NCBI RefSeq assembly: GCF_000021545.1
Contig: NC_012438.1
Location: 1,300,003-1,364,002 of the forward strand
Reading direction: 5' to 3'
Origin: Sulfurihydrogenibium azorense Az-Fu1
GTDB lineage: Bacteria > Aquificota > Aquificia > Aquificales > Hydrogenothermaceae
Length of the DNA: 64,000 nucleotides
This document shows, in pieces, positions 6,774-24,403 of the stretch (position 1 is the first letter of the stretch; the number at the start of each line of letters is the position of its first letter). The notes below the pieces were generated by a model. The model ran no database searches and was not told where the DNA came from. It was given only the letters and a program-made list of their open reading frames with translations. Position numbers and translations under genes: made by a program.

Positions 6774-9700
6774 TTACGCTGATGGGAATTTCCAATATTC
6801 GTCATCAATTGGGAACCAAGGTCTTGGCATCCACTTAGGTCTTCTTAAACCACCTGGCTGGTAGTTTGGTCTTGTAAGCTGGTCTCTCCACGCTTTGTAA
6901 ACTTCCCAAGTTTTGTTTATATCTACAAATACATCTCCTATCTTATCTTCAGGACCTGCTTTCTCTATTAAAACTTTCTTGTGCCAGCATTGCATACCTG
7001 ATAGTGGGTCTGGGTTTGCTGGGAAAACTGCGTTTTGGAATACTCCCGTTGTTCCTTTCCACCATATTTGCTCTGTGTCTTTGTTAAACTCAGGGAACTG
7101 CCAAGATTTAAATGGTTTTACACCTTCCTTAGTTCTCATAAAAAACTGGTTACCTTTTTGTTGAATATCTACCAATACAGAACCCATTCTCATTACACCA
7201 AGTTCGTGTTTAAATCCATCTACTTTTACTTCGTTTACCAATCTCCATCTACCGTTATGGTGAGAGCATGCTACCACTCCGGGTCTTGTGGCCTGTGTAG
7301 GCATAGCCATTGCAACAAAGTATCCTGTTTCTATACCTGTTAAAGTATCTACAACTCTAACTTTTACAGCATCTCCTCTTTTGATACCTAACCTTTTAGC
7401 ATCTTTTTCGTATATCCATAGTGGGTTGTGGTTTTGTCCTATTTCCATAAGCCATTTTGAGTTTATTGACCTTGTGTGTATTAGATAAGGAAGTCTGTAA
7501 ATCGGGTTTAAAACAAACGCATTTTCTTCTTTTATATAATCATGGTGTACTTGGGATACAATGTGAATCATCTGTTTTCTTTCTTCAGCGTTTCTTGGAT
7601 ATATAGGTATTGCATACTCAGGCCATTTCCACTCTTTTAAAGTTGGAGAGTAAAACTCTATAAGTCCAGAAGGGGTTTTAAATCCGTTTACTATTTTTCC
7701 ATCTTTGACTATTCCTATCTTGTGTTTTTTTCCACCTTCTTCTACGTGGTAAGCTATATCATTTTCTATTTTTACCTCATTTTCTGGTATCCATTTTCCA
7801 TCGTATTGATAAGCTTTTTTCTCAGGATCGTAAGGTAATGGTTTTTCGTGAACGTTGTAAACATCCGTTGCCTCTGTCCAAGCTCCTCTGTCTCTCATAT
7901 ATTCGTAAGGAGTTATACCAAGCTGCTGGCATACTTCACTGAGTTTTGGTAGTGTTGAAAATGCAGCGTTGTAGTATTCTTCCATGGTAACAGGTTTACC
8001 TGGGTTTTGTTTTGATTCCCAGTATTTTCTTATACCTAAAGATCCATCTGGGTCAATTGCAAATGCCAAGTTTACAAAAAACTCATCTTCTTCCCATATT
8101 TCCCCTAAACCTACTTTTTTATGAGCTTCTAACGTAGCTTTAGCTGGGTCGTTTGGTTTCCAACCCATCTTTTGTAGTGCAACTCTTAAAACAGGTTGTC
8201 TAAATCCTGTCCACTTTTCCGGTTTAGTAGGTTCTGAGTGTTGGTCGTGTCTCTCTCCAGCAAGTCCCATAGGTAAAATGTAATCACAGTAAAATGCAGT
8301 TTCAGACCATATAGGAGACAAGTATACAGTTAAACCAAACCTATTTTCATCTTTTAGAGCTTCTACCCATCTAAAACCATCAGGGTTAATCCATACTGGG
8401 TTGTAAATTCTTGAAAACCACACTTCTACTTTATCAGGTATTTTAAGACCTTTTTCTTTCCATTTGTTTCTCCACTCATCATCCATCACTAAGTGAGGTA
8501 AGAGATAACTAAGTTCGTAAGCTGATAAAGGCCACTCTGGAGGCCACTCAAGTTCATTCCATGCTTTAACTGGTTCAGGAGTATCAGCCATACATGCACT
8601 ACCACCTTTATCACCAATAGATATTGTATGCCATTTGTACCATCCTACTCCACCTACGTTACCTATAGCACCCATGAAAGCCATAAGTATTGTTCCTGTT
8701 CTACCAGCTCCCATCCATCCGCCCCTGTTTCCAGCTGCAACTGCTCTCCAGTGGTACTGAGTTATTCTATCTCCGGCCCAAAGTATCAATTCGTAAAGTT
8801 TTTCTAACATAGATACTGGAATTTTTGCTTCTTGTGCAGCCCATTCGAAGGTGTAATCTTTGTAGAGGTCTTTTAAAACTGCAACAAAGTCTTCAAAAGA
8901 GTTTCCGGAAGGTACTTCAGTTAGGAATCCTTTTTCTTTTAAGAAGTTTAAGTAATCTTTGTCTTCTATAAACTGTTTCCAGTTAAACCATCTTTTTACA
9001 AACTCCTTATTGAACTTTTCTTCTTTTACAATCCTGCTTATCATTGCAAGGTTTATTGCAGCTTCTGTTCCAGGCCAAGCAGGTATCCAAAGGTCTGCCA
9101 TTCCTGCAGAGTTTGACAGCCTTGGGTCTATAACTACAAGTTTTGCACCTTTTGCCCTTGCATCTGCTATGTATCCTGCATGTTGCTGGTAGTAGTGTCC
9201 TGCATCTGCAGCGTGAGAAGATACAAGAAGTATTAATCTACTGTTTGCAAAGTCCGGAGATGTTCTATCATCTCCTACAGTGACTATGTTTCCAAATCTT
9301 CCGTTTGAAGAACATATGTTTGTGTGAGAGTTTCTACCATCTACTCCCCATGACCAAACAACTCTTTTTACATGAAAACCGTTTTCATTCGGTCTTCCTA
9401 CTTGGTATATGATTTGTTTTTTAGATATTTCATCTCCTTTAAGGAGAACTTCTCTCATTCTCTTACCAATTGTCTCTAAAGCTTCTTCCCAAGTGGTTCT
9501 AACCCACTTATTTTCACCTCTTTTACTTCCAGGAGCTCTCTTTAGAGGGAATGGTATTCTATCAGGGTCGTACATTTGAGAAAGTGCTGCGTATCCTTTT
9601 GCACAGTTTCTTCCTCTTGACCCAGAGTGGAAAGGATTACCCATAAACTTTCTAACAGTTAGAGTGTCTTTATCTATCCAAGCTGTTAAACCACATGCAG

Positions 9701-9989
9701 CTTCACAGTTATTACAAACAGTTGGAACTATCATGTAGTTAATAAGTTTTACACCATCCCTTAAAGCTCCACCATGTATTTTCCAGTAATCCCCTGCAGG
9801 TTCTTTCCAGTCATTCCACTTTTCAAACGGTGGATAGTAGTCTAAATGTTTTGGTTCAAATGTTAACTCTTGATTGTTTGCTACTTTATTATCTGCTTCT
9901 ACTTTTTCAAAAACTCCTTTAGTCAGTGCAACAGCACCGATAGAAGCTGCAGCTCCTTTTAAAAAGTTTCTTCTTGTTGTCTTTATCAT
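6774..9989 (-). CDS. Tat-exported molybdopterin oxidoreductase catalytic subunit (TtrA/PsrA-like)
   Basis: This 1071-residue catalytic subunit carries a twin-arginine signal (TTRRNFLKG at residues 4-12, then a hydrophobic stretch). An FS0 [4Fe-4S] motif CxxCxxxC-x29-C has cysteines at about 92, 95, 99 and 129. HTNICSS supplies a candidate Mo-ligand Cys at about 226, as in polysulfide, tetrathionate and formate enzymes. Dinucleotide-binding blocks end with a C-terminal cap domain. Length and gene order (FeS protein, NrfD, catalytic subunit) resemble TtrBCA more than PsrABC. The substrate is probably an inorganic sulfur compound, but a selenium or arsenic oxyanion or sulfite cannot be excluded. 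ATG 9989 is chosen because AGGAGG sits 7 nt upstream; the in-frame GTG at 9995 abuts the ribosome site. Confidence 0.88.
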   Translation of the reverse strand: MIKTTRRNFLKGAAASIGAVALTKGVFEKVEADNKVANNQELTFEPKHLDYYPPFEKWNDWKEPAGDYWKIHGGALRDGVKLINYMIVPTVCNNCEAACGLTAWIDKDTLTVRKFMGNPFHSGSRGRNCAKGYAALSQMYDPDRIPFPLKRAPGSKRGENKWVRTTWEEALETIGKRMREVLLKGDEISKKQIIYQVGRPNENGFHVKRVVWSWGVDGRNSHTNICSSNGRFGNIVTVGDDRTSPDFANSRLILLVSSHAADAGHYYQQHAGYIADARAKGAKLVVIDPRLSNSAGMADLWIPAWPGTEAAINLAMISRIVKEEKFNKEFVKRWFNWKQFIEDKDYLNFLKEKGFLTEVPSGNSFEDFVAVLKDLYKDYTFEWAAQEAKIPVSMLEKLYELILWAGDRITQYHWRAVAAGNRGGWMGAGRTGTILMAFMGAIGNVGGVGWYKWHTISIGDKGGSACMADTPEPVKAWNELEWPPEWPLSAYELSYLLPHLVMDDEWRNKWKEKGLKIPDKVEVWFSRIYNPVWINPDGFRWVEALKDENRFGLTVYLSPIWSETAFYCDYILPMGLAGERHDQHSEPTKPEKWTGFRQPVLRVALQKMGWKPNDPAKATLEAHKKVGLGEIWEEDEFFVNLAFAIDPDGSLGIRKYWESKQNPGKPVTMEEYYNAAFSTLPKLSEVCQQLGITPYEYMRDRGAWTEATDVYNVHEKPLPYDPEKKAYQYDGKWIPENEVKIENDIAYHVEEGGKKHKIGIVKDGKIVNGFKTPSGLIEFYSPTLKEWKWPEYAIPIYPRNAEERKQMIHIVSQVHHDYIKEENAFVLNPIYRLPYLIHTRSINSKWLMEIGQNHNPLWIYEKDAKRLGIKRGDAVKVRVVDTLTGIETGYFVAMAMPTQATRPGVVACSHHNGRWRLVNEVKVDGFKHELGVMRMGSVLVDIQQKGNQFFMRTKEGVKPFKSWQFPEFNKDTEQIWWKGTTGVFQNAVFPANPDPLSGMQCWHKKVLIEKAGPEDKIGDVFVDINKTWEVYKAWRDQLTRPNYQPGGLRRPKWMPRPWFPIDDEYWKFPSA

Positions 9990-10003
9990 ATTCACCCTCC
10001 TTA

Positions 10004-10885
10004 TTAACTAAGTGGTAACATTTGAGGAGCTAAAAGCCATGAATGTTTTACAAGCCAAAGACCAACCAAAGCAGATATTGAGCCAAGTAAAGCATACTCG
10101 TACTTTTTCTTTTCGTTTGCTATTCCTACTAAGATTATTGGGATGATGAATGTTAAAAATATTCCAAGCCAGAACATAGGTGCAAGACTACCAAATGTTA
10201 AAATTTCCACAGCTCTATGGGAAAATTCTGAGTGCATTCTTGCAAATAAAATCTCTCCAAGGTACATCATTCCTGATAAAAATGCAGAACCTATAAGTAT
10301 ATAACCAAGCTCTCTTTTTACTTCTTCCATCTCAACTTTATAAATTGTCATAAGTAAAAGGTAAGCTGCAGAACCTGCCAATGTTGCAGATAAAAGCATT
10401 TGAATCATTTCAGCAGGGAAAACCCATAACTCTCTTGCTGTTGATTCACCCATTATACCTGCAGTGTAGATAGTTGAAAAGAATGCCAGTACAAACCCTG
10501 GAAGCATCACTTTATCAAAAAGTTTTTTATTTCCAGTTACCCATGACCAGAAAGATATTAAAAGGACTATAACAAAACCAGAAACAACCCATGCTCCGAG
10601 TGTAACTGCTGAAGTAAAGTGTGCAAATAAGAATATCTTCCAAAATCTAAACATATGGTGAAGGTCTAAAACTGTTACTAAAAGTGTAATACCTATAAAT
10701 ATTAATCCAAGTATTGGAACCCACTTTCTAAAAAATGCATCTTTTTCTGGATACTTTTTTATAAAATACAAACCAAGAAGAAAACTTCCTGTTGCAATAC
10801 TTTTAGCCCACATATTTGTTGAAACAAGCCATCCCCATACAACTTTTGGTAACGCTACATCAAAAGTTACTTCAGCTCCCAACAT
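10004..10885 (-). CDS. NrfD/PsrC-type membrane quinone-interacting subunit
   Basis: A 293-residue protein with about eight hydrophobic spans in the NrfD arrangement, including WLVSTNMWAKSIATGSFLLG at the start and DLHHMFRFWKIF in an early loop. NrfD subunits anchor periplasmic molybdoenzyme-FeS dimers and exchange electrons with the quinone pool without haem. It lies between the FeS protein and the catalytic subunit, 14 bp from the latter. The start is ATG 10885 with AGGAGG upstream. Electron direction (quinone reduction during sulfur oxidation, or quinol oxidation during sulfur respiration) cannot be told from sequence. Confidence 0.9.
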   Translation of the reverse strand: MLGAEVTFDVALPKVVWGWLVSTNMWAKSIATGSFLLGLYFIKKYPEKDAFFRKWVPILGLIFIGITLLVTVLDLHHMFRFWKIFLFAHFTSAVTLGAWVVSGFVIVLLISFWSWVTGNKKLFDKVMLPGFVLAFFSTIYTAGIMGESTARELWVFPAEMIQMLLSATLAGSAAYLLLMTIYKVEMEEVKRELGYILIGSAFLSGMMYLGEILFARMHSEFSHRAVEILTFGSLAPMFWLGIFLTFIIPIILVGIANEKKKYEYALLGSISALVGLWLVKHSWLLAPQMLPLS

Positions 10886-10887
10886 GA

Positions 10888-11523
10888 TTAATGCCCTCCT
10901 ATATGGTCTAAAAACTTAACTTCTGTAAATAAAGTATAACCTTCAGGTCTTTCTGAAGCTAATGGGTCAAGAGCAACTGTAGAACCTCTTACATAAAAAT
11001 GTTTTGGTTTTGTGTTTAACTCTGGTTTTCTAACCATTACATCTTTATGTTCTTTTAAGTATTTAGAGATTTCACTTTCAGGGTCATCTAAATCACCAAA
11101 TATGTTTGCATGGGTTGGGCATGCAACTACACACGCAGGCATCATTCCTACTTCTATTCTATGGGCACAGTAAGTACACTTGTCTGCAGAGTTTGTAATA
11201 GGGTCTATATAAATCGCATTGTATGGACAAGCCATCATACAGGACGCACATCCTATACATCTGTTGTGGTCAACGTTTACTATACCGTTAGGAAGGTAAT
11301 GTAATGCACTTACAGGACATATTCTTTCACAAGGGGCATTTTCACAGTGATTACATCTTAAAGGTACAAAGTGTCTCTTTACTTCTGGAAACTCCCCTTG
11401 GTCTATGTACTTAACCCTCAACCTCCAACTATGTAAAGGAACATCGTTTTCAGCCTTACAAGATACAGCACAAGCCATACACCCCATACATCTACTTAAA
11501 TCCACTAAAAATCCAAGTCTCAT
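10888..11523 (-). CDS. PsrB/TtrB/NrfC-like four-cluster ferredoxin subunit
   Basis: A 211-residue electron-transfer subunit with four cysteine clusters typical of DmsB/PsrB proteins: CMGCMACAVSCK near residue 13, CNHCENAPCERICP near 57, CIGCASCMMACP near 91, and CTYCAHRIEVGMMPACVVACP. It should carry four [4Fe-4S] clusters between the NrfD anchor and the molybdoprotein. It has no signal of its own and would be exported with the Tat-tagged partner. It ends 2 bp before the NrfD gene start. Confidence 0.92.
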   Translation of the reverse strand: MRLGFLVDLSRCMGCMACAVSCKAENDVPLHSWRLRVKYIDQGEFPEVKRHFVPLRCNHCENAPCERICPVSALHYLPNGIVNVDHNRCIGCASCMMACPYNAIYIDPITNSADKCTYCAHRIEVGMMPACVVACPTHANIFGDLDDPESEISKYLKEHKDVMVRKPELNTKPKHFYVRGSTVALDPLASERPEGYTLFTEVKFLDHIGGH

Positions 11524-11553
11524 AGTTTAACCCTCCATTGTATAATCACAGAC

Positions 11554-11955
11554 TTATAGACATCCTTTGAAAAATCCTGCTTTTGGTTTTGGAGATATTT
11601 TATACTCTTGAATTTCTAATACAGGTAAATCACCTTCTTTTTTTACTATTTTGCCTTTTGCATCTATACTTCCACCAAACCCTTCATCAAGCTCAAAGTA
11701 GTAAATGTTTTTTGGAGCTATTGCATAAAAAGTATTTTCTGTAACGTCGTATATCACATAGCCGGTTTGAGCTGCTTCAACAGGTGGACAACTTGATAAA
11801 AGCTCAAAGCTCCCTGTTGCTTTTGCCTTTTCTGCACAAGATTTTGCTGTTATAACAGCACTAGATAACTCAACTTCTTCTCCAACATTCTCTGCAGCAA
11901 AAGAAGGTATTATTAAACCAAGAGACAATATAACACTTAACATAACTTTTCTCAT
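11554..11955 (-). CDS. Small exported protein of unknown function
   Basis: A 133-residue protein with a clear Sec signal peptide (MRKVMLSVILSLGLIIPSFA, cleavage near residue 20). I do not recognise a family. The mature part has three cysteines (in AKSCAEKA, LLSSCPPVE and the C-terminal KGCL), enough for a disulfide or metal site, and an aromatic YFELDEGFGG loop. It is the first gene behind the second copy of the 19-bp promoter element at 12007-12025, so it leads the sub-operon encoding the TtrBCA-like complex. It may be a periplasmic accessory or electron-transfer protein; this is inference from position only. Confidence 0.7.
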   Translation of the reverse strand: MRKVMLSVILSLGLIIPSFAAENVGEEVELSSAVITAKSCAEKAKATGSFELLSSCPPVEAAQTGYVIYDVTENTFYAIAPKNIYYFELDEGFGGSIDAKGKIVKKEGDLPVLEIQEYKISPKPKAGFFKGCL

Positions 11956-12028: not shown

Positions 12029-13162
12029 TCATTTTAAAGTTTTTAAATACGCAACTATATCTTTTAAATCCTGTTCAGATAAATGAGCATACGGTGGCAT
12101 TTTAGAAGTTATATTACCTTTGTCGTCTTTTATGTACCATGTATACATATCGTTATTTGGATAAGCACCATTTTTATCTGGTCCTGCAGCTTTGTTATAG
12201 TGTCTGTTTATGTTAAGGTTTCTAATTACAACATCGTTTGGATTTACTATTGACTCTTTTAGGTATATAGGGTTAGAGTATCCTCCGATTTTTGAAAGAT
12301 TTGGAGCCAGTCCTTCTGGAGCTGCAGTTTGGTCTGCAAATCTGTGGCAACCGTTACATCCATTTTGAATCATTAACTCTTTACCTCTTGCTGGATTACC
12401 TATTTCACCGTATCCCCATGAGATATATTTTAAGTAGTTAGGATCTACTTTTGCATTACCCATTTTTATAAACTTCCAGTTAGATATAACTTTATTACCA
12501 TCTCTGTTTAGAGAGTTTCCATCCCATATTGCAAAAGATACCGGAACCATTCCAGAAGCAAGGTTTAAATCAGGTGTTTTTATAGGTTTTTTAATAAAAG
12601 CTATCCATTGCTTATTTGCATCATCGTATTTCATTGTAAATGTATAACCTTTTTCTTGAATCTCAGTTAAACTTCCAAAGCCTTCAGCTATAAATGCCTT
12701 TTGGTAATCCTTTCCTTCTACAGCCTTTTTTAGATAAGTCATAACAGGATGTTTTGAGTCTCCCATTCCTATGTAAGCAAGAGTTGTCCCTTTACCGTAT
12801 TTAACTGGAAATTGAACTGATACTCCATCTCCATACTTGTTAGTTGTCATAGCTGGCTGAACAGATTTTGTTTCATCTTTCCATTTTATTAAAATTCCTA
12901 TCTCTTTTTGATTATAACCAACGGTAACTTCTGCTTCTACAGGCTTTTGTTCCTCTACTAATTTTTTAGCATTTGCATCATTTAATGCAACTGTATATTG
13001 CTGATATAAAGTTATTTTTTTTGTAGGTAAAGACGAAAGACCTTCTTCAGATATATTTGCTATTTGTTTAGCTTCTATAACATCATCTTCAAACTTATCT
13101 ACGCCAGCATTGGAAGATATTACTAAAGTTGATAAAGCAAGTAAAGATAAAGCTTTTTTCAT
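12029..13162 (-). CDS. Type II DMSO-reductase gamma (haem b) subunit fused to cytochrome c
   Basis: The 377-residue exported protein has a Sec signal (about residues 1-19). An ethylbenzene-dehydrogenase-type haem-b domain follows, with the family block PVSFAIWDGNSLNRDG near 206-222. A C-terminal class I cytochrome c domain has CNGCH at 269-273 and a candidate axial Met in SKMPPYAHLS. Gamma subunits of SerC, DdhC, ClrC and EbdC type carry the haem-b domain alone. Here the fused c domain would pass electrons directly to or from periplasmic carriers. It is encoded behind the beta subunit, across a short hairpin, and should form the periplasmic alpha-beta-gamma enzyme. Confidence 0.86.
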   Translation of the reverse strand: MKKALSLLALSTLVISSNAGVDKFEDDVIEAKQIANISEEGLSSLPTKKITLYQQYTVALNDANAKKLVEEQKPVEAEVTVGYNQKEIGILIKWKDETKSVQPAMTTNKYGDGVSVQFPVKYGKGTTLAYIGMGDSKHPVMTYLKKAVEGKDYQKAFIAEGFGSLTEIQEKGYTFTMKYDDANKQWIAFIKKPIKTPDLNLASGMVPVSFAIWDGNSLNRDGNKVISNWKFIKMGNAKVDPNYLKYISWGYGEIGNPARGKELMIQNGCNGCHRFADQTAAPEGLAPNLSKIGGYSNPIYLKESIVNPNDVVIRNLNINRHYNKAAGPDKNGAYPNNDMYTWYIKDDKGNITSKMPPYAHLSEQDLKDIVAYLKTLK

Positions 13163-13223: not shown

Positions 13224-14375
13224 TTAATGACCACCATGTTTTTCTTTCTGTGGAAGTGGTAAAACCTTTTCGTGGAATGTGTAGTCTTTTATCTCTACTC
13301 TTTGAGTGTTTGCACCGTGTAAGTATCTTTGATCTACAATCCTGAAGAACTCTGAACCTTTAAGTCCTTTTTTAGCAGCTTCTTGTTGGTAATAGTTGTT
13401 ATCAAGTCTGAACATATCTCTGTGGGAGTATGCAATAAGAATATCCATTAACTCTGATTCTTCTCCTCTTGCTCTTTTTTCCATTTCTTTTCTTAAAGTT
13501 TCAAGTGCTTGATGAACTTCTTTTCCAAATAGAAGCTCTAAGTATTCAATAGGAGTTCTTCTTGAACCTTCTATTGGAGCCATATTGTCATCGAATTTTG
13601 GTGGTTCAAACAACGGTGGTACATAGTAAACGTTTGGTTGAGTTCCAAAGTCAGGTCTAAGTGGTAAAGCTACTTTATATTTATGAACTAATTTGTAAAC
13701 TTGTCCTTCTTCGTCATCTAAAAATCCTACAAATCTTATTCTACCTACACACTGGTGAGCACAAGCTGGTGGTAGTCCTCTTTCTACCCTTGGGAAGCAG
13801 AATATACACTTTTCAGACTTAGATATTTTAGGGTTAAAGTATATCTTTTTGTAAGGGCAACCTGCTATACAGTATCTATAACCTTGACATCTTTCAAGGT
13901 CAACTAATACTATACCGTCTTGCTCTCTTTTAAATATAGCTTCCCTTGGACATGCTGCAAGACAACCTGGGTTAGAACAGTGGTTACATATTCTTGGGAT
14001 GTAGAAGAAGTAAGAGTTTGGATACTCTCCTCCTCCTACATCTTCGTCCCAGTTTGGTCCCCACTGTAAATCAGACTTAGTTTGTAAAAGTGAACCATTG
14101 AAAAGTTCATCGTGGTTGTAATCCCATGGTACTCCATAGTCTAATGCTAAGTCTGGAATTATACCGTCCTTTAGATTACCATCTTGATCAAATCCTCCAC
14201 CAGCTTCCATCCAGTTTCTTGGGTATCCAGCTCCAGGATGTGTCTCAACATTGTTCCAGTACATGTATTCTCTTCCGTTTCTGTTCGTCCACTGTGTTTT
14301 ACAAGCAACTGTACAAGTTTGGCAACCTATACATTTATTTAAATCCATTACCATTGCAAGTTGTCTTTTTGACAT
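13224..14375 (-). CDS. Type II DMSO-reductase-family beta (FeS) subunit
   Basis: A 383-residue NarH/SerB/DdhB-like subunit. It starts MSKRQLAMVMDLNKCIGCQTCTVACK and has further cysteine groups CNHCSNPGCLAACP, CQGYRYCIAGCP (a Tyr/Trp-type replacement as in the NarH family, where one cluster is [3Fe-4S]) and CIFCFPRVERGLPPACAHQC. The VGRIRFVGFLDD block is characteristic of the type II group. It moves electrons between the molybdenum subunit and the haem-b gamma subunit. AGGAGG precedes the ATG. It lies 12 bp after the alpha stop. It carries no signal peptide and would need the alpha Tat signal for export, which is missing here. Confidence 0.92.
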   Translation of the reverse strand: MSKRQLAMVMDLNKCIGCQTCTVACKTQWTNRNGREYMYWNNVETHPGAGYPRNWMEAGGGFDQDGNLKDGIIPDLALDYGVPWDYNHDELFNGSLLQTKSDLQWGPNWDEDVGGGEYPNSYFFYIPRICNHCSNPGCLAACPREAIFKREQDGIVLVDLERCQGYRYCIAGCPYKKIYFNPKISKSEKCIFCFPRVERGLPPACAHQCVGRIRFVGFLDDEEGQVYKLVHKYKVALPLRPDFGTQPNVYYVPPLFEPPKFDDNMAPIEGSRRTPIEYLELLFGKEVHQALETLRKEMEKRARGEESELMDILIAYSHRDMFRLDNNYYQQEAAKKGLKGSEFFRIVDQRYLHGANTQRVEIKDYTFHEKVLPLPQKEKHGGH

Positions 14376-14387
14376 TTACATACCTCC

Positions 14388-16922
14388 TTAAACTTTTTCT
14401 ATATCAACGGAAGTTTCGTAAGCATGTTGGTTACCATCCCAGTTTCCACCAAACTTGAGATGTCCCCAACCGTCGGAAAGCTCTAACAGGTTTAAAGGTG
14501 AAGCAACAACTTCGTTATGTCCTTTTCTTCCTTTGTAGAAGAATGGTTCCCAACCATGTTCAAGAAGTATTGCATCTTTAGGACAAGAAGGGTATACCTT
14601 AGCCATTGCGTAAAACTCACCTAAAGTATTGTAAACTCTTACTTCATCTCCATCTTTAATACCTTTTTTCCTTGCAATCTCAGGGTTTATCATTACGTAA
14701 GGTTTTCCTCTTTGGAGTCTAAGGAGAAGTGTTGATGTCTTATAAGTAGAGTGGATAGACCATCTTGCGTGTGGTGTCATAAGTACAAATGGGAATTTTC
14801 TTGGTCTGATAGGTTCTTTTGCAGTTGGTACGTTTGCACCTTCCTGTATCCATAAGTCATCATCTACATAGTAAGTTATTCTTCCTGATAGAGTTTCAAA
14901 TCTTTCATATAGGAAAAGATTATTTTCAAATACATTATATGGTTTATCTGGATATAGAGGTGAGGATTTTCCAGCTTTTTCGTTTAGTACTAAGTAACCA
15001 CCTCTTTTAAACATAGATTCTATTGTGTTTGGTTTAAACTGGTCTGTGTTTTCAAGAGCAAGCTCTACCGCATCTTTGTCAGTTCTGAGTTGTCCGTTTA
15101 TCGTGTACTCGTCAACTAATGTATCAAGGTCTCTGTACCCGGTTTTTGAAAGTTGCGGGTCTGGTATTTTAATGTATTTTTTATCTCCTGTTTCTTTGTA
15201 CTTTTTCATTGCAATTTCTTGAATTTTTTCAACGATCATTGTACAGATTTCCCACTCAGATTTAGCTTCTCCAACTGGTTTTAGATTTGCAGGTGGATGT
15301 GCTAAGTTTGCAAACCTGTGGTACCCTGGGTTCGTTCTTAGGTCCCAAACTTCGTAGTGAGATTTTGCTGGTAGAAGTATATCTGCATAATTTGCAAAAT
15401 CTGACATTCTAAAGTCCACATAGGCTATAAATTTAGCTTTCTCTAAGAATGCTTTTTTGTAAGAAGATCCTTTATTTCTTCTAAATCTTGCATCTGCAAA
15501 GAGTAAGAATGTTTGAACATCTTTCCAGTAAGACTTTCCATGCCCTATTCCTTTATCACCTTCAGATTTTGAAAGCATCTCTTCCACTTTCTTTTTATAC
15601 TCTTCTTTTGACATTCCCATCACTTGTTTAAATGTTTCTTCTTCATAGAGCTTATCAAAATCTTGCATCATATTACCAAGGACAAACTCACTTACAAATC
15701 CAGATGCAAATCTTTCTTTATATTTACCAGCAAATCCAGATATTTTTGCCAGCCCTGATATTGACCACTCATTCTCAGTGTTAAATCCACCGTAAGGTCC
15801 AAGTCTTCCACAAAGTGGCGTAATAGACGCTATAGCCCTTTGAGCTAACATTCCGTTAAAGTACTTACCTATTGTAAATCCCATAGATATAAACGCAACT
15901 TTTGGAAGGGCTATATCCCTTGCAAGTTGTTGGACTATCTTTGGATGAACATTTGTTAGTTTAAATGTCTTTTCTGCTGGGAATTTTGCAGCTTCTGCTT
16001 TTAACAGCTCAAACACAGGTGTAACTTTAACTTTTGAACCATCTTTTAATCTAACCTCATAAACACCTTCTAAAGCTGGGTCTATGTCCCATCCAAGGTC
16101 TTTTAATCTCAACGTTTTAACTGGGTTTCCTTCAGAACCAGGCATTATTGTGAATTTACCGTTTTTAAGGTTGTAGGATAAAAATACTTCATGCTCTTCA
16201 AACTCTTTTCCGTGGGCTTTTTCTTCCATATTGTGGAATATCTCTTTATCAAACATAGGATCATTTTTATCTATGTCTGATAGTCTTAATAGCTTCTTAT
16301 TATCAAGTCTAACCAAGAAAGGTAGGTCTGTAAATACTTTAATAAAGTTAGGTTTGTAGAGTTTTTGCTGGATTATCTCATTTATTATAGACATTGCTAA
16401 AAATCCGTCATATCCAGCTCTTACAGGCACCCATAGGTCAGCTCCCTTTGCTGTTGCGTTGTAGTCAGGAGTGATAACTATAACTTTTCCACCGTTATAT
16501 TTACCTTCCCAAACCCAGTGAGCATCAGGAATTCTTGTTTTATTAGGGTCTTGTCCCCACCAAATTTGAACGTTTGCAGTGTAAACAAAGTCGTAAGAGA
16601 ATCCTATATTACCTTCACCGTAAACTAAAGACACACCAGGGAACATATCACCAACGTAAGAAGCTATGTAAGGTCTTACAGCACCAAGTAACGTTCCAAG
16701 TCTTTTACCAGAGGCTGCCCTTGCTTCTGTAAGCATACCTGCACCAACATGTATGTAGTTTCCTTGAGGACCAACAGTTAACATAGTTTCGTATATTCTA
16801 GTAGCCACTTCTGTAATAGCCTCATCCCAAGATATTCTCTTCCATTTACCTTCTCCTCTTTCTCCTACTCTCTTCATTGGATAGAGGATTCTGTCTTTTT
16901 CATACATTAAACACTGAAACAA
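14388..16922 (-). CDS. Type II DMSO-reductase-family alpha subunit, N-terminus missing
   Basis: The 844-codon frame encodes a NarG/SerA/DdhA-like catalytic subunit from the conserved YEKDRILYPMKRVGERGEGKW block to a normal C-terminus. SYVGDMFPG supplies a candidate Mo-ligand Asp (residue 92), as in type II enzymes. Family members have roughly 100 or more residues before this block, with the Tat signal and FS0 [4Fe-4S] cysteines. Here an in-frame stop lies 4 codons above TTG 16922 and only 62 bp separate it from the YeeE stop. The rest of the frame is intact. Translation may start at TTG 16922 or, by coupling to the micro-ORF stop, at ATG 16907. The gene is either recently truncated and non-functional or encodes a cytosolic, FS0-less variant. 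Confidence 0.85.
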   Translation of the reverse strand: MFQCLMYEKDRILYPMKRVGERGEGKWKRISWDEAITEVATRIYETMLTVGPQGNYIHVGAGMLTEARAASGKRLGTLLGAVRPYIASYVGDMFPGVSLVYGEGNIGFSYDFVYTANVQIWWGQDPNKTRIPDAHWVWEGKYNGGKVIVITPDYNATAKGADLWVPVRAGYDGFLAMSIINEIIQQKLYKPNFIKVFTDLPFLVRLDNKKLLRLSDIDKNDPMFDKEIFHNMEEKAHGKEFEEHEVFLSYNLKNGKFTIMPGSEGNPVKTLRLKDLGWDIDPALEGVYEVRLKDGSKVKVTPVFELLKAEAAKFPAEKTFKLTNVHPKIVQQLARDIALPKVAFISMGFTIGKYFNGMLAQRAIASITPLCGRLGPYGGFNTENEWSISGLAKISGFAGKYKERFASGFVSEFVLGNMMQDFDKLYEEETFKQVMGMSKEEYKKKVEEMLSKSEGDKGIGHGKSYWKDVQTFLLFADARFRRNKGSSYKKAFLEKAKFIAYVDFRMSDFANYADILLPAKSHYEVWDLRTNPGYHRFANLAHPPANLKPVGEAKSEWEICTMIVEKIQEIAMKKYKETGDKKYIKIPDPQLSKTGYRDLDTLVDEYTINGQLRTDKDAVELALENTDQFKPNTIESMFKRGGYLVLNEKAGKSSPLYPDKPYNVFENNLFLYERFETLSGRITYYVDDDLWIQEGANVPTAKEPIRPRKFPFVLMTPHARWSIHSTYKTSTLLLRLQRGKPYVMINPEIARKKGIKDGDEVRVYNTLGEFYAMAKVYPSCPKDAILLEHGWEPFFYKGRKGHNEVVASPLNLLELSDGWGHLKFGGNWDGNQHAYETSVDIEKV

Positions 16923-16971
16923 GTAAAACCACTATAGCTATCCAAAATAGTAATCTTTCTGTCATACTCAT
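16900..16971 (-). CDS. 23-residue membrane micro-ORF overlapping the alpha-subunit start
   Basis: ATG at 16971 is preceded by GAGGTGGG and opens 23 codons: MSMTERLLFW, a hydrophobic IAIVVLLVSV run and FNV. Its TGA (16902-16900) overlaps an in-frame alpha ATG at 16907 as ATGTATGA, a classic coupling geometry. Most likely it is the 5' end of another gene, or of the original alpha, joined out of frame to the alpha body by a deletion. A real leader peptide is the alternative. Moderate confidence in the frame, low in its function. Confidence 0.45.
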   Translation of the reverse strand: MSMTERLLFWIAIVVLLVSVFNV

Positions 16972-16984
16972 TTTACCCACCTCT

Positions 16985-18106
16985 TTAGTCGTAAACTTCT
17001 TCAGATTCTTTTTTAGCTTCTAAAAATCTTGACCATCTACCAAAGTATATTAAGTTTGCAGTTAGTACACCTACTATAAAGTAAGTTCCGGACATTGCCA
17101 TACTACCTATAGAAAGTGTAGGATAGGCAGCTAAGAATGCTCCAGTTGTGCAACCACCACCTATTAAAGCTCCTAAAGCCAAAAATATTCCTGCGAAGAA
17201 AACTAAAACCATTCTTACGTAAGGGATTGGTGTAACTCTTGCAAACGCAGGAGGAACAGGATCAAACTTAAATCTACCTGATATTATAGCAGCCAAGAAA
17301 GCACCAGGTAAAACACCTAATATTAATCCAGAATGCCATAGTATGGTTTCATTAACTTGAGGAACAACGTTTGATATAGGATAACCTATTAAGTGAGAAA
17401 TCCAACCTACTAATGCAAGTAGAGCTCCTGAAAAGCCCAAGTATTCTCCCTGAGCTGTAGCCCATGCGATTATAGAACCAGCAGCTACACCACCTATAGC
17501 CCAATGCCACTCATCTTTTATAAGATTAAAACTTGTTTTCTCTTGATAAAGTTTCTTAGCAGGGTCTAACCAATCAGCAATTAAAGCAAATACTAAAAAT
17601 AAAACTCCCCATGCAACAGCTAATGGACCATAAGGAACTCCTAAGACACCATAAAGGGTTAAATCTTGTTTATTACCTAAAATACCAGCCTCTACTAAAG
17701 AGGGTTGAATAGCGTTATAAATAATCACACCCAAAACTAAACCAACAACACCTGCAGCTGATATAAACTTTCCTGCTCCTACTCTTGCAACACACGTTCC
17801 CGGACAAAAACCTGCAGAAGCCATAGCAATTCCAAACATTACACCACCTATAAGGTGAGCTACTCCCAGATAAGGCATTATTCTTGGAATAAGGTTTGTA
17901 GATTCTGAAAATCCAAGAATATCAGCAAGTCCATAGATTATTGAAGCTGTAGCTATCCCAGTAAACGCAAACTTCATAATTTTTAAGTCCCTTAAAAGGA
18001 GCATACCTTCAACACGGGAATACCTTACAGCTCCAACCTTAAAGAGAACAAAACCAAATAGAGCACCTGTTATAAGACCCATTATAAGATGATTTGTGTG
18101 TTCCAT
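16985..18106 (-). CDS. YeeE/YedE-family sulfur-compound transporter
   Basis: A 373-residue inner-membrane protein made of two homologous halves with about ten spans. Each half has a conserved cysteine loop: SAGFCPGTCVARVGAGK in the first and IGGGCTTGAFLAAYPTLSIG in the second. These are the signatures of the YeeE/YedE (TsuA-like) family, whose characterised member takes up thiosulfate. It lies between the periplasmic rhodanese and the type II enzyme, so it probably moves thiosulfate or a related sulfur species across the inner membrane for this cluster. A hairpin (18139-18156) separates it from the rhodanese gene. Confidence 0.88.
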   Translation of the reverse strand: MEHTNHLIMGLITGALFGFVLFKVGAVRYSRVEGMLLLRDLKIMKFAFTGIATASIIYGLADILGFSESTNLIPRIMPYLGVAHLIGGVMFGIAMASAGFCPGTCVARVGAGKFISAAGVVGLVLGVIIYNAIQPSLVEAGILGNKQDLTLYGVLGVPYGPLAVAWGVLFLVFALIADWLDPAKKLYQEKTSFNLIKDEWHWAIGGVAAGSIIAWATAQGEYLGFSGALLALVGWISHLIGYPISNVVPQVNETILWHSGLILGVLPGAFLAAIISGRFKFDPVPPAFARVTPIPYVRMVLVFFAGIFLALGALIGGGCTTGAFLAAYPTLSIGSMAMSGTYFIVGVLTANLIYFGRWSRFLEAKKESEEVYD

Positions 18107-18164: not shown

Positions 18165-19082
18165 TTACTGCTCTATAGGTAAAGATGCGTCGTTACCCCA
18201 TTCGTCCCAAGAACCTACATAAACTTTTGCTTTAGGATATCCTGCAAGTTTTAAAGCTGCAAATACAAAAGATCCTCTTCCAAGTCCTACGTGACAATAG
18301 GAGATAACTGTTTTATCAGGAGTAATTCCAGCTCTTTCAAGTTGTTTTTTGATTTGATCTACAGGTTTAAATAGAGGTTTATCAGGCTCACCGTTAGGGT
18401 TACCAGCCAGTTTTTTCCATTCAAAGAATTTAGCTCCAGGAATGTGTCCACCCCTTTCAACTTGCTTGTGTTTTCCAGGAGCTTCCAATGCTTCCAATAG
18501 AGTTTTACCTGTGTATTCTTCAAATCTTCTTGCATCAAGTATCACATAGTTAGGATCTTTTGAAGCTTTTAGTACTTCATCTTTTGTAGCTAAGATATCT
18601 TTTCTTACTTTTACAGTAAATTTACCAGGAGCTGGTTTTTTAGCAGGACCTGTTTCTACAGGTAATCCTTTTGCTTTCCAAGTAGCAAAACCACCATCTA
18701 ACATTTGAACGTTGTCAACACCGTATAAGTAAAGGAAAAACCATACACCAGATGCGTTAGGTCCTTTACCATCGTCGTAAGCTATTACGTGAGAGTTGTT
18801 GCTGATACCAAGCCCAGATATTAACTTTTGTGCATTGTTTTCACACATAGGAAGTCCGCCACACTTTTTAATGTCAGAGAGGTAGTGAAGGTCGTGAGCG
18901 TATGCATTTTGAGCATTTGGAATGTGTCCTGCTTGAAATACTTTTGGGTCATCACCACATACAAACACTGCCTTTCCAAGTAAGTCTTTTGCTTGGTCTA
19001 CAGAGATTAGTAAATCTGCAGCCTTTGAAGATGCTGCTACTGTTAAAAGTCCTGCTGCTGCAAGTGTTAAAACTTTTTTCAT
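18165..19082 (-). CDS. Periplasmic two-domain rhodanese (thiosulfate sulfurtransferase)
   Basis: The 305-residue protein has a Sec signal peptide (about residues 1-21, ending ASSKA) and two rhodanese domains. The first has an inactive loop (DDGKGPNASG). The second carries the catalytic cysteine in ISYCHVGLGRGS. Such enzymes transfer sulfane sulfur from thiosulfate or polysulfide to an acceptor, and a periplasmic location suits sulfur-oxidising or respiring bacteria. It is the first gene of the cluster, with promoter element copy 1 51 bp upstream and a good Shine-Dalgarno (AGGAGG). It should supply or accept sulfur for the transporter and molybdoenzymes behind it. Confidence 0.9.
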   Translation of the reverse strand: MKKVLTLAAAGLLTVAASSKAADLLISVDQAKDLLGKAVFVCGDDPKVFQAGHIPNAQNAYAHDLHYLSDIKKCGGLPMCENNAQKLISGLGISNNSHVIAYDDGKGPNASGVWFFLYLYGVDNVQMLDGGFATWKAKGLPVETGPAKKPAPGKFTVKVRKDILATKDEVLKASKDPNYVILDARRFEEYTGKTLLEALEAPGKHKQVERGGHIPGAKFFEWKKLAGNPNGEPDKPLFKPVDQIKKQLERAGITPDKTVISYCHVGLGRGSFVFAALKLAGYPKAKVYVGSWDEWGNDASLPIEQ

Positions 19083-21786: not shown

Positions 21787-21985
21787 GATTCTTTATCTTC
21801 TTGGCATAGTTATAGGTTTATATGCTATTTTCAATAACTTACCCTATATCTTTAAAGTAGATTTTTCTGACCCTATGTTAGCGTTGGGAAAGATTTTAGT
21901 TTCTTTATTCCCTGTGATAGCCGGGACTGTAATAGTTTACGTTTCAGCTTACAACTTGTATTTAAGCTTTAAAAATAAATCTTGA
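21776..21985 (+). CDS. Small two-span membrane protein
   Basis: A 69-residue protein with two hydrophobic segments (residues about 4-22 and 36-62) and a short basic tail (SFKNKS). I do not recognise a family. It starts inside the gyrA 3' end and its last 30 bases form the left edge of the 954-bp duplicated unit (from 21956). It is probably co-transcribed with gyrA and the FAD protein. Confidence 0.6.
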
Positions 21986-21999
21986 CAGGAGGTGAAAAT

Positions 22000-22611
22000 A
22001 TGGAAAGGTATGATGTGGTAATAGTAGGTGGAGGACCTGCTGGACTTTCCTGTGCTTTAACGTTAGCATCAGCTAAAGGACACTTTGAGTGGGGAGAAAA
22101 CAGAAAGTATTTAGTAATTGATAATGACTCTTCAGACTTACTGAAAGCACAGCTTTATAACGTACCAGGACTTCCTCAAGGAATACTTGGAAGAGAAGCT
22201 TTAGAAAACCTAAGAAAACAAGCACAAAGTTATGGAAACGTTGAAATTGTTAAAGGAAGAGTTGTTAAAGTAGAAGGTGAGTATAAAAACTTTAAGGTTA
22301 TCACTGAAGAAGATAAAGAGTATTTAGGTGATATAGTAGTATTTGCAACAGGATTTCATGAGTTTAACATAGAGTGTGAAGGTGTAGAAGTTATAGAAAA
22401 TAAAAGGTCTCCAAGACCGGGTAAAGTTCAGTTAAAAGTTGATGAAGATAATAAAATAAGAGAGGGTCTTTATGCAGCTGGATTGATAGCAGGAGTTAGT
22501 ACTATGTACGCTTGTGCAGCCGGAAGTGGTGTTCAAGTAGCTTGTAATATCCAAGCTTTATGGGCTGGTAAAAACGTTGTTGTTCACGATGTACCTAAAG
22601 ATAAACAATAA
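22000..22611 (+). CDS. Short thioredoxin-reductase-like FAD-binding protein, copy 1
   Basis: A 203-residue flavoprotein: the FAD-binding Rossmann motif VVIVGGGPAGLSC is at the N-terminus, with the VVFATGFHEF strand mid-way and the C-terminal GLYAAGLIAG flavin-binding motif. It lacks the NADPH domain and the CxxC of true thioredoxin reductase, so it is half the usual length; substrate and partner are unknown. ATG 22000 has AGGAGGTG 6 nt upstream; the in-frame TTG at 21982 lies before that site and is rejected. An identical second copy follows at 22954-23565. Confidence 0.85.
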   Translation: MERYDVVIVGGGPAGLSCALTLASAKGHFEWGENRKYLVIDNDSSDLLKAQLYNVPGLPQGILGREALENLRKQAQSYGNVEIVKGRVVKVEGEYKNFKVITEEDKEYLGDIVVFATGFHEFNIECEGVEVIENKRSPRPGKVQLKVDEDNKIREGLYAAGLIAGVSTMYACAAGSGVQVACNIQALWAGKNVVVHDVPKDKQ

Positions 22612-22618
22612 AAAAATT

Positions 22619-22638
22619 AGGAAGGCTTTTGCCTTCCT
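22619..22638. terminator. Bidirectional terminator, copy 1
   Basis: AGGAAGGC / GCCTTCCT stem with a TTTT loop, flanked by A-run and T-run, between the FAD gene and the convergent coiled-coil gene fragment. Duplicated at 23573-23592. Confidence 0.8.
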
Positions 22639-22645
22639 TTAAAAT

Positions 22646-22909
22646 TTAATAGTTAACTTTTATTAATAAAACTCCTTTTTCTTTTGCAATATCCTCTATA
22701 TCATCACTACCTTCTACGTATACAACGGTAGGTATAACCTCTTGTTTTAAAACCTTATAAAGTGCGTTTGCTCTATCTAAAGATCTTTCTAAGTCATCTT
22801 TGTATAGAGAGTAGCTAACTTCTACAGCTAAGTACACAGGTTTTCTGTTTTCTCTTAACTCTCCACTAACCACTAAATCTAAGTCAAATAGAGAATATCT
22901 CTCGCTTTG
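22646..22909 (-). pseudogene. Orphan 3' fragment of the coiled-coil protein gene
   Basis: These bases duplicate the last 264 bp of the 23600-24403 gene, created by the tandem duplication. Reading the minus strand, the fragment's left-over frame runs from the junction to the stop at 22646 with no start site, promoter or ribosome site of its own. It corresponds to the C-terminal 87 residues (from about SERYSLFDLDLVVSGE). It is not expected to be expressed. Confidence 0.88.
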
Positions 22910-22953
22910 TTGTATTTAAGCTTTAAAAATAAATCTTGACAGGAGGTGAAAAT

Positions 22954-23565
22954 ATGGAAAGGTATGATGTGGTAATAGTAGGTGGAGGACCTGCTGGACT
23001 TTCCTGTGCTTTAACGTTAGCATCAGCTAAAGGACACTTTGAGTGGGGAGAAAACAGAAAGTATTTAGTAATTGATAATGACTCTTCAGACTTACTGAAA
23101 GCACAGCTTTATAACGTACCAGGACTTCCTCAAGGAATACTTGGAAGAGAAGCTTTAGAAAACCTAAGAAAACAAGCACAAAGTTATGGAAACGTTGAAA
23201 TTGTTAAAGGAAGAGTTGTTAAAGTAGAAGGTGAGTATAAAAACTTTAAGGTTATCACTGAAGAAGATAAAGAGTATTTAGGTGATATAGTAGTATTTGC
23301 AACAGGATTTCATGAGTTTAACATAGAGTGTGAAGGTGTAGAAGTTATAGAAAATAAAAGGTCTCCAAGACCGGGTAAAGTTCAGTTAAAAGTTGATGAA
23401 GATAATAAAATAAGAGAGGGTCTTTATGCAGCTGGATTGATAGCAGGAGTTAGTACTATGTACGCTTGTGCAGCCGGAAGTGGTGTTCAAGTAGCTTGTA
23501 ATATCCAAGCTTTATGGGCTGGTAAAAACGTTGTTGTTCACGATGTACCTAAAGATAAACAATAA
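22954..23565 (+). CDS. Short thioredoxin-reductase-like FAD-binding protein, copy 2
   Basis: Identical in protein and DNA to the gene at 22000-22611, with the same AGGAGGTG ribosome site. It lies behind copy 1's terminator and the orphan fragment, and only 44 bases of leader were duplicated with it. It has no promoter of its own unless read-through or a sequence in the fragment provides one. The duplication may therefore raise dosage little. Confidence 0.85.
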   Translation: MERYDVVIVGGGPAGLSCALTLASAKGHFEWGENRKYLVIDNDSSDLLKAQLYNVPGLPQGILGREALENLRKQAQSYGNVEIVKGRVVKVEGEYKNFKVITEEDKEYLGDIVVFATGFHEFNIECEGVEVIENKRSPRPGKVQLKVDEDNKIREGLYAAGLIAGVSTMYACAAGSGVQVACNIQALWAGKNVVVHDVPKDKQ

Positions 23566-23572
23566 AAAAATT

Positions 23573-23592
23573 AGGAAGGCTTTTGCCTTCCT
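23573..23592. terminator. Bidirectional terminator, copy 2
   Basis: Same AGGAAGGC / GCCTTCCT hairpin as at 22619-22638, serving FAD copy 2 and the full-length convergent coiled-coil gene. Confidence 0.8.
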
Positions 23593-23599
23593 TTAAAAT

Positions 23600-24403
23600 T
23601 TAATAGTTAACTTTTATTAATAAAACTCCTTTTTCTTTTGCAATATCCTCTATATCATCACTACCTTCTACGTATACAACGGTAGGTATAACCTCTTGTT
23701 TTAAAACCTTATAAAGTGCGTTTGCTCTATCTAAAGATCTTTCTAAGTCATCTTTGTATAGAGAGTAGCTAACTTCTACAGCTAAGTACACAGGTTTTCT
23801 GTTTTCTCTTAACTCTCCACTAACCACTAAATCTAAGTCAAATAGAGAATATCTCTCGCTTTGGGTTATTATACCTTTTTCCTCTGCTTCATCTATCTCA
23901 TCTATAAGACGGTTTAAGTCTACAAGCTTAGACTTTTTTAAGATTCTACCAAAATATGCAGCAAACTTATCCCTAACTTTTCTTTCAAAATCACTACCTT
24001 TAAACTTTCCAAACTCACCTTTTAAGTAGTTTACATCTTTTTTGAGTACTGCCACATCCTTTTTAAGACCTTCTACATCCTGCTTTAATACTGCTACGTC
24101 TTGTTTTAATACTGCTACATCTTGTTTCAGTATTGCTACATCTTGTTTTAAGACTTCTACATCAGCTTCTATTTTGTCAACCTTCTTCTCTAGTCTATCA
24201 TGTTTTTCTTCTAAAGTTTTAAGGTGTTGTAAAAGTTCCTCCATTTTTTTGGGAAGTTCTAAAAGCTCAGAAGTCAGTATTATCTTTCTCAACTCTTCAA
24301 GCCAATCAGGATGTTCTATTAATGCTTTAACAATGTCTGCAAAGGTTTTAATCTCGTACTTTTTCATTTCTTGCTCAATTCTTTCATCTAACGTTAAGCT
24401 CAT
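23600..24403 (-). CDS. Coiled-coil protein with a nuclease-like C-terminal domain
   Basis: This 267-residue protein has three parts. An acidic N-terminal helical region comes first (residues 1-60). A long coiled coil (about 60-130) contains tandem heptads of the form VLKQDVA. A C-terminal alpha/beta domain (about 140-267) contains FDLDLVVSGE...VYLAVEVSYS, resembling the D...ExS core of DUF3782-like, PD-(D/E)XK-type domains. The heptads correspond to imperfect 21-bp DNA repeats at about 24045-24165. Such proteins are common and often multicopy in Aquificales; function is not established. Its 3' third is duplicated at 22646-22909. Confidence 0.75.
   Translation of the reverse strand: MSLTLDERIEQEMKKYEIKTFADIVKALIEHPDWLEELRKIILTSELLELPKKMEELLQHLKTLEEKHDRLEKKVDKIEADVEVLKQDVAILKQDVAVLKQDVAVLKQDVEGLKKDVAVLKKDVNYLKGEFGKFKGSDFERKVRDKFAAYFGRILKKSKLVDLNRLIDEIDEAEEKGIITQSERYSLFDLDLVVSGELRENRKPVYLAVEVSYSLYKDDLERSLDRANALYKVLKQEVIPTVVYVEGSDDIEDIAKEKGVLLIKVNY
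24045..24165 (-). repeat. Imperfect 21-bp repeats coding coiled-coil heptads
   Basis: About five consecutive 21-bp units resembling TGCTACATCTTGTTTTAATAC, each coding one VLKQDVA-like heptad of the coiled-coil protein. Near-identity of adjacent units points to recent slippage. Confidence 0.75.

Follow-up and report, generated by a model that had tools for sequence, protein, structure and literature searches.

A short type II molybdoenzyme alpha subunit and its upstream micro-ORF in Sulfurihydrogenibium azorense probably derive from a single deletion

Introduction

In the genome of Sulfurihydrogenibium azorense Az-Fu1, the alpha subunit of a type II molybdoenzyme starts well inside the sequence expected of its family, without a Tat signal or FS0 cluster, and behind a micro-ORF that overlaps its start. 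How did this arrangement arise? The initial annotation offered two answers: a deletion that fused the start of another gene out of frame to alpha, or a leader-controlled cytosolic enzyme. Here, we compare the locus, which lies in a 64,000-nucleotide stretch of contig NC_012438.1 (the window), with its counterparts in other Hydrogenothermaceae.

Results

On the minus strand, TTG 16922 and ATG 16907 are possible starts of the alpha frame, which is open to 14388, with no stop in the 839 remaining codons. The shorter product begins with MYEKDRILYP, and the TTG start lies 62 bp from the end of YeeE, as had been annotated. TIGR03479 (type II alpha) is the best NCBIfam model, with a score below its cutoff, and molybdopterin and dinucleotide-binding domains (PF00384, PF01568) are found. 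However, the profile match starts only at position 112 of 913, whereas the full-length alpha of the closest relative (genome G006, 97% protein identity; locus L002) matches from position 1. Relative to this protein, 123 N-terminal residues are gone, in line with the annotation, in which about 100 or more residues expected in this family were noted as absent. The window alpha carries no Tat signal, while relatives have one of the SRRDFLK type, and none of the FS0 ligands of the pattern HxxxCxxxC...C, which are H71, C75, C79, and C114 in L002; the three cysteines left (366, 555, and 775) include no FS0 ligand. The annotated alpha subunit without Tat signal or FS0, starting at the YEKDRILYP block, is thus confirmed by both the profile and the comparison with the relative.

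The neighbouring genes are intact (Table 1), and both the beta and the heme-b gamma partners of the type II family are present; gamma scores above the cutoff for EB_dh (PF09459) and below that for TIGR03477. Directly downstream lies a second, intact molybdoenzyme operon (6774-11955) encoding a PhsA-like alpha, a TtrB/DsrO-like ferredoxin, NrfD, and a 133-aa protein with a signal-like N-terminus and no Pfam match. We considered this PhsA-like alpha as an intact replacement copy and rejected it, as it is only distantly related to the truncated subunit. The window also opens with a CRISPR-like array (1-1105) of about 17 copies of GTTTTTCTCCCGACTATGAGGGAATTGAAG, spaced 66-68 bp apart, the last of which is degenerate.

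Table 1. Features at and around the alpha locus, in window coordinates.
Feature	Coordinates	Strand	Remarks
Second Tat-dependent molybdopterin enzyme alpha, thiosulfate-reductase PhsA-like	6774..9995	-	Intact
Gamma-type subunit, EB_dh heme-b domain fused to cytochrome c	12029..13162	-	Intact; signal-like N-terminus
Type II beta (iron-sulfur) subunit	13224..14375	-	Intact; TIGR03478 above cutoff
Alpha remnant, type II DMSO-reductase	14388..16907	-	No Tat signal, no FS0 ligands; frame still open
Putative deletion junction	16907..16909	-	Left homology to 16909, right homology from 16907; base 16908 (A) ambiguous
Micro-ORF, 23 codons, membrane-type	16900..16971	-	ATG 16971 to TGA 16900; product MSMTERLLFWIAIVVLLVSVFNV
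YeeE/TsuA-like sulfur transporter (PF04143)	16985..18106	-	Intact; conserved neighbour
Rhodanese, two rhodanese domains	18165..19082	-	Intact; conserved neighbour; signal-like N-terminal stretch

Other Hydrogenothermaceae with an assembled locus share a longer operon, in which a rhodanese gene and YeeE are followed by a small single-TM protein (45-52 aa), a TM-anchored rhodanese (163 aa), an alpha subunit of about 962 aa with Tat signal and FS0, beta, and gamma. Other Sulfurihydrogenibium and members of neighbouring genera have the same order. In G006, YeeE is followed by genes for the small protein (45 aa, MSMTERLLFWIAIVVLLVSVFGVKKHVSELDAKVSQVQTQTGGQQ), for the membrane-anchored rhodanese (163 aa, with GGGGGCL at its end), and for an alpha of 962 aa with the Tat signal SRRDFLK and the complete FS0 motif. 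Of the 41 family genomes, 33 gave a match to the alpha N-terminus and 31 to the TM rhodanese in protein searches; the window genome gave neither. The window genome is the only one to lack the N-terminus among those with an alpha body assembled from its first residues. We sought relatives that share the short gene together with the micro-ORF, which would have spoken against a deletion, and found none; all 12 relatives' alphas that we inspected directly contain the FS0 motif. The whole locus is absent from three genomes (G003, G014, and G015), and the operon can therefore be lost.

Several further observations concern this operon in relatives. The small single-TM family (in the closest relative, L002:485-622) is characterized by an MSMxERxLFW start and a short charged tail over 45-52 aa, has no Pfam or NCBIfam match, and is paired with the TM-anchored rhodanese ending in GGGGGCL in many Hydrogenothermaceae. 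A description of an operon combining YeeE, the small single-TM protein, the TM rhodanese, and a type II molybdoenzyme was not found in the papers searched. Two alpha genes elsewhere look damaged, by an apparent frameshift at L019 (G010:C12:152588-155541) and by several stops at G055:C31:11715-14629, reflecting either sequencing error or independent loss.

Aligning the window to L002 places the difference at a single point. The YeeE side matches without gaps (L002 1-547 to window 17455-16909), and the alpha side matches over 4 kb with 3 gap positions (L002 1504-5520 to window 16907-12890); the roughly 956 bp between these flanks (L002 548-1503) are missing from the window. Likewise, a 201-bp junction query gave two matches about 1 kb apart in each of four congeners. 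Intact orthologues with flanks that align on both sides of one junction, the signature of a recent deletion pseudogene, are thus at hand. Microhomology at the breakpoints amounts to 1-2 bp at most, and we reject a deletion mediated by direct repeats on this ground. The metagenome-assembled genome G001, with a contig end about 97-99% identical to the locus, was dropped from the comparison, as its assembly is chimeric and inverted at that end.

Relocation of the 5' part would be another way to obtain a short gene. The window genome is a single contig of 1,640,877 bases, which we searched whole: the missing DNA gave no match beyond chance, and queries with the alpha N-terminus and the TM rhodanese protein returned only chance or distant rhodanese similarity. 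Since the same protein queries match in 33 and 31 of the 41 family genomes, the search for relocated parts works, and relocation is rejected by the DNA and both protein searches.

The micro-ORF can be accounted for by the same junction. As annotated, it is a membrane-type frame of 23 codons with a ribosome site of its own (AGAGGTGG) upstream. Its residues 1-21 are identical to those of the family-conserved small single-TM protein and are followed by out-of-frame alpha DNA up to the stop, the TGA being alpha codons read in another frame. The micro-ORF is therefore not a chance frame, because its first 21 residues equal a family-conserved protein; on sequence comparison it is what remains of the 5' end of the conserved small-protein gene, with codons 1-21 followed by a hybrid end. 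The annotated coupling into alpha stands insofar as the micro-ORF does terminate in ATGTATGA and overlap the downstream start. However, in L005 and in the inspected congeners ATGTATGA belongs to the normal interior of the alpha gene, and the apparent start-stop coupling is therefore an accidental by-product of the deletion. In relatives, neither the micro-ORF nor the coupling is kept: the frame is 45-52 codons long and overlaps instead the start of the rhodanese gene that comes next (ATGA in L002, L004, and L007).

These results bear directly on the second annotated possibility, namely that an alpha lacking both Tat signal and FS0 evolved here into a working cytosolic enzyme under leader control. 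While the reading frame of the remnant is uninterrupted and its sequence strongly conserved, and re-initiation after the micro-ORF is possible through ATGTATGA, the arrangement is shared by none of the relatives, those with an assembled 5' region having the N-terminal extension. In addition, ATGTATGA is unremarkable in congeners, the micro-ORF is the 5' end of a broken gene, and gamma keeps its signal-like N-terminus, as in a periplasmic complex. We consider a leader-controlled enzyme very improbable. A related idea, that re-initiation from the broken upstream gene still yields truncated alpha and that this product works in the cytosol as a molybdenum enzyme without FS0, kept by purifying selection, appears to us extremely improbable.

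When did the change occur? Polarised with outgroups, and with many sites ambiguous, alpha accumulated 2 nonsynonymous and 28 synonymous changes on the window branch, and 4 and 32, respectively, on the G006 branch. By hand arithmetic from these counts, a wholly neutral branch would give about 100 nonsynonymous changes. The pN/pS of the remnant (~0.031) is below that of every neighbouring gene tested except one, and the polarised counts revealed no relaxed selection on the 839 codons. Against the neutral expectation, free drift can cover only a few percent of the window branch, with a rough upper bound of about 6% that rises when ambiguous sites are included. With neither stops nor relaxed selection, the deletion is therefore very recent, derived from culture, or a cloning or assembly artefact. 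The lack of decay fits a recent event and would also suit retained function or an artefact.

An artefact would mean that the deletion was introduced by a sequencing clone or by the assembly and that the organism's real genome keeps the full operon. The full constraint on the remnant and the intact beta, gamma, and YeeE genes favour this possibility, as does a second odd structure only 5 kb away, a perfect 954-bp tandem duplication present as one copy in G006. On the other hand, no repeat that could mislead an assembler lies at the breakpoints, and the genome is a single contig with clean sequence across the junction. We regard an artefact as rather unlikely. The duplication itself (21956-22909 and 22910-23863, without mismatches) holds an FAD/NAD oxidoreductase-like gene twice, along with the 3' part of gene 23600-24403, and is either very recent or an assembly error.

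Discussion

We conclude that both the short alpha and the micro-ORF are likely explained by one deletion in the sequenced lineage or its culture, which took out about 956 bp and of which they would be the two stumps. The annotated out-of-frame fusion to the start of another gene is thereby supported, by the loci of the relatives as well as by the junction alignment. The event would have joined codon 21 of the small-protein gene, out of frame, to alpha codon 124, removing the rest of the small TM gene, the entire membrane-anchored rhodanese, and the alpha N-terminus with its Tat signal and FS0-binding region. It appears to be recent, possibly dating from laboratory culture.

In PcrA, EbdA, and NarG, electrons go from the cofactor to beta through FS0. 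Without Tat signal and FS0, both the normal periplasmic route and electron transfer to beta would be blocked for the alpha remnant. Low-level translation by re-initiation may persist; any alpha so made would be expected to stay cytoplasmic, FS0-less, and inactive, and the periplasmic enzyme would be lost in this strain. Loss of the molybdoenzyme, the small TM protein, and the TM rhodanese is most likely the present state. The event is of an ordinary kind, and what the genome record says about this enzyme probably misleads: reading respiration from the window record would yield a cytosolic enzyme or no enzyme at all. The practical value is modest, consisting of caution about this record and a pointer to an operon for which we found no description in the literature searched. 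The adjoining rhodaneses and YeeE/TsuA-like transporter suggest a role of the intact enzyme in sulfur chemistry. Should the deletion prove real, this strain would serve as a natural knockout, and its sulfur chemistry, set beside that of a close relative carrying the intact operon, could show the enzyme's role.

The closest known systems are the type II DMSO-reductase alphas (PcrA, 4ydd; EbdA, 2ivf; TIGR03479). The relative's full-length alpha aligns with the 4ydd chain over most of its length (E 7.6e-118) and shares with the family the FS0 motif, the Tat signal, and the adjoining type II beta and heme-b gamma. It scores 816 bits against TIGR03479, below the curated cutoff of 985, and therefore represents a divergent branch. 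The window alpha differs from the family in lacking the first 123 residues, the Tat signal, and all four FS0 ligands. Its short upstream frame, with a ribosome site and an overlap with the downstream start, resembles control by leader peptides or translational coupling; here, however, the overlap would have been made by the deletion. The locus also resembles lineage-specific pseudogenisation by internal deletion, in which non-homologous sites are joined and two stumps fused out of frame while the rest of the operon stays intact. The window case differs in that no secondary damage has built up, and the event is therefore very recent or an artefact.
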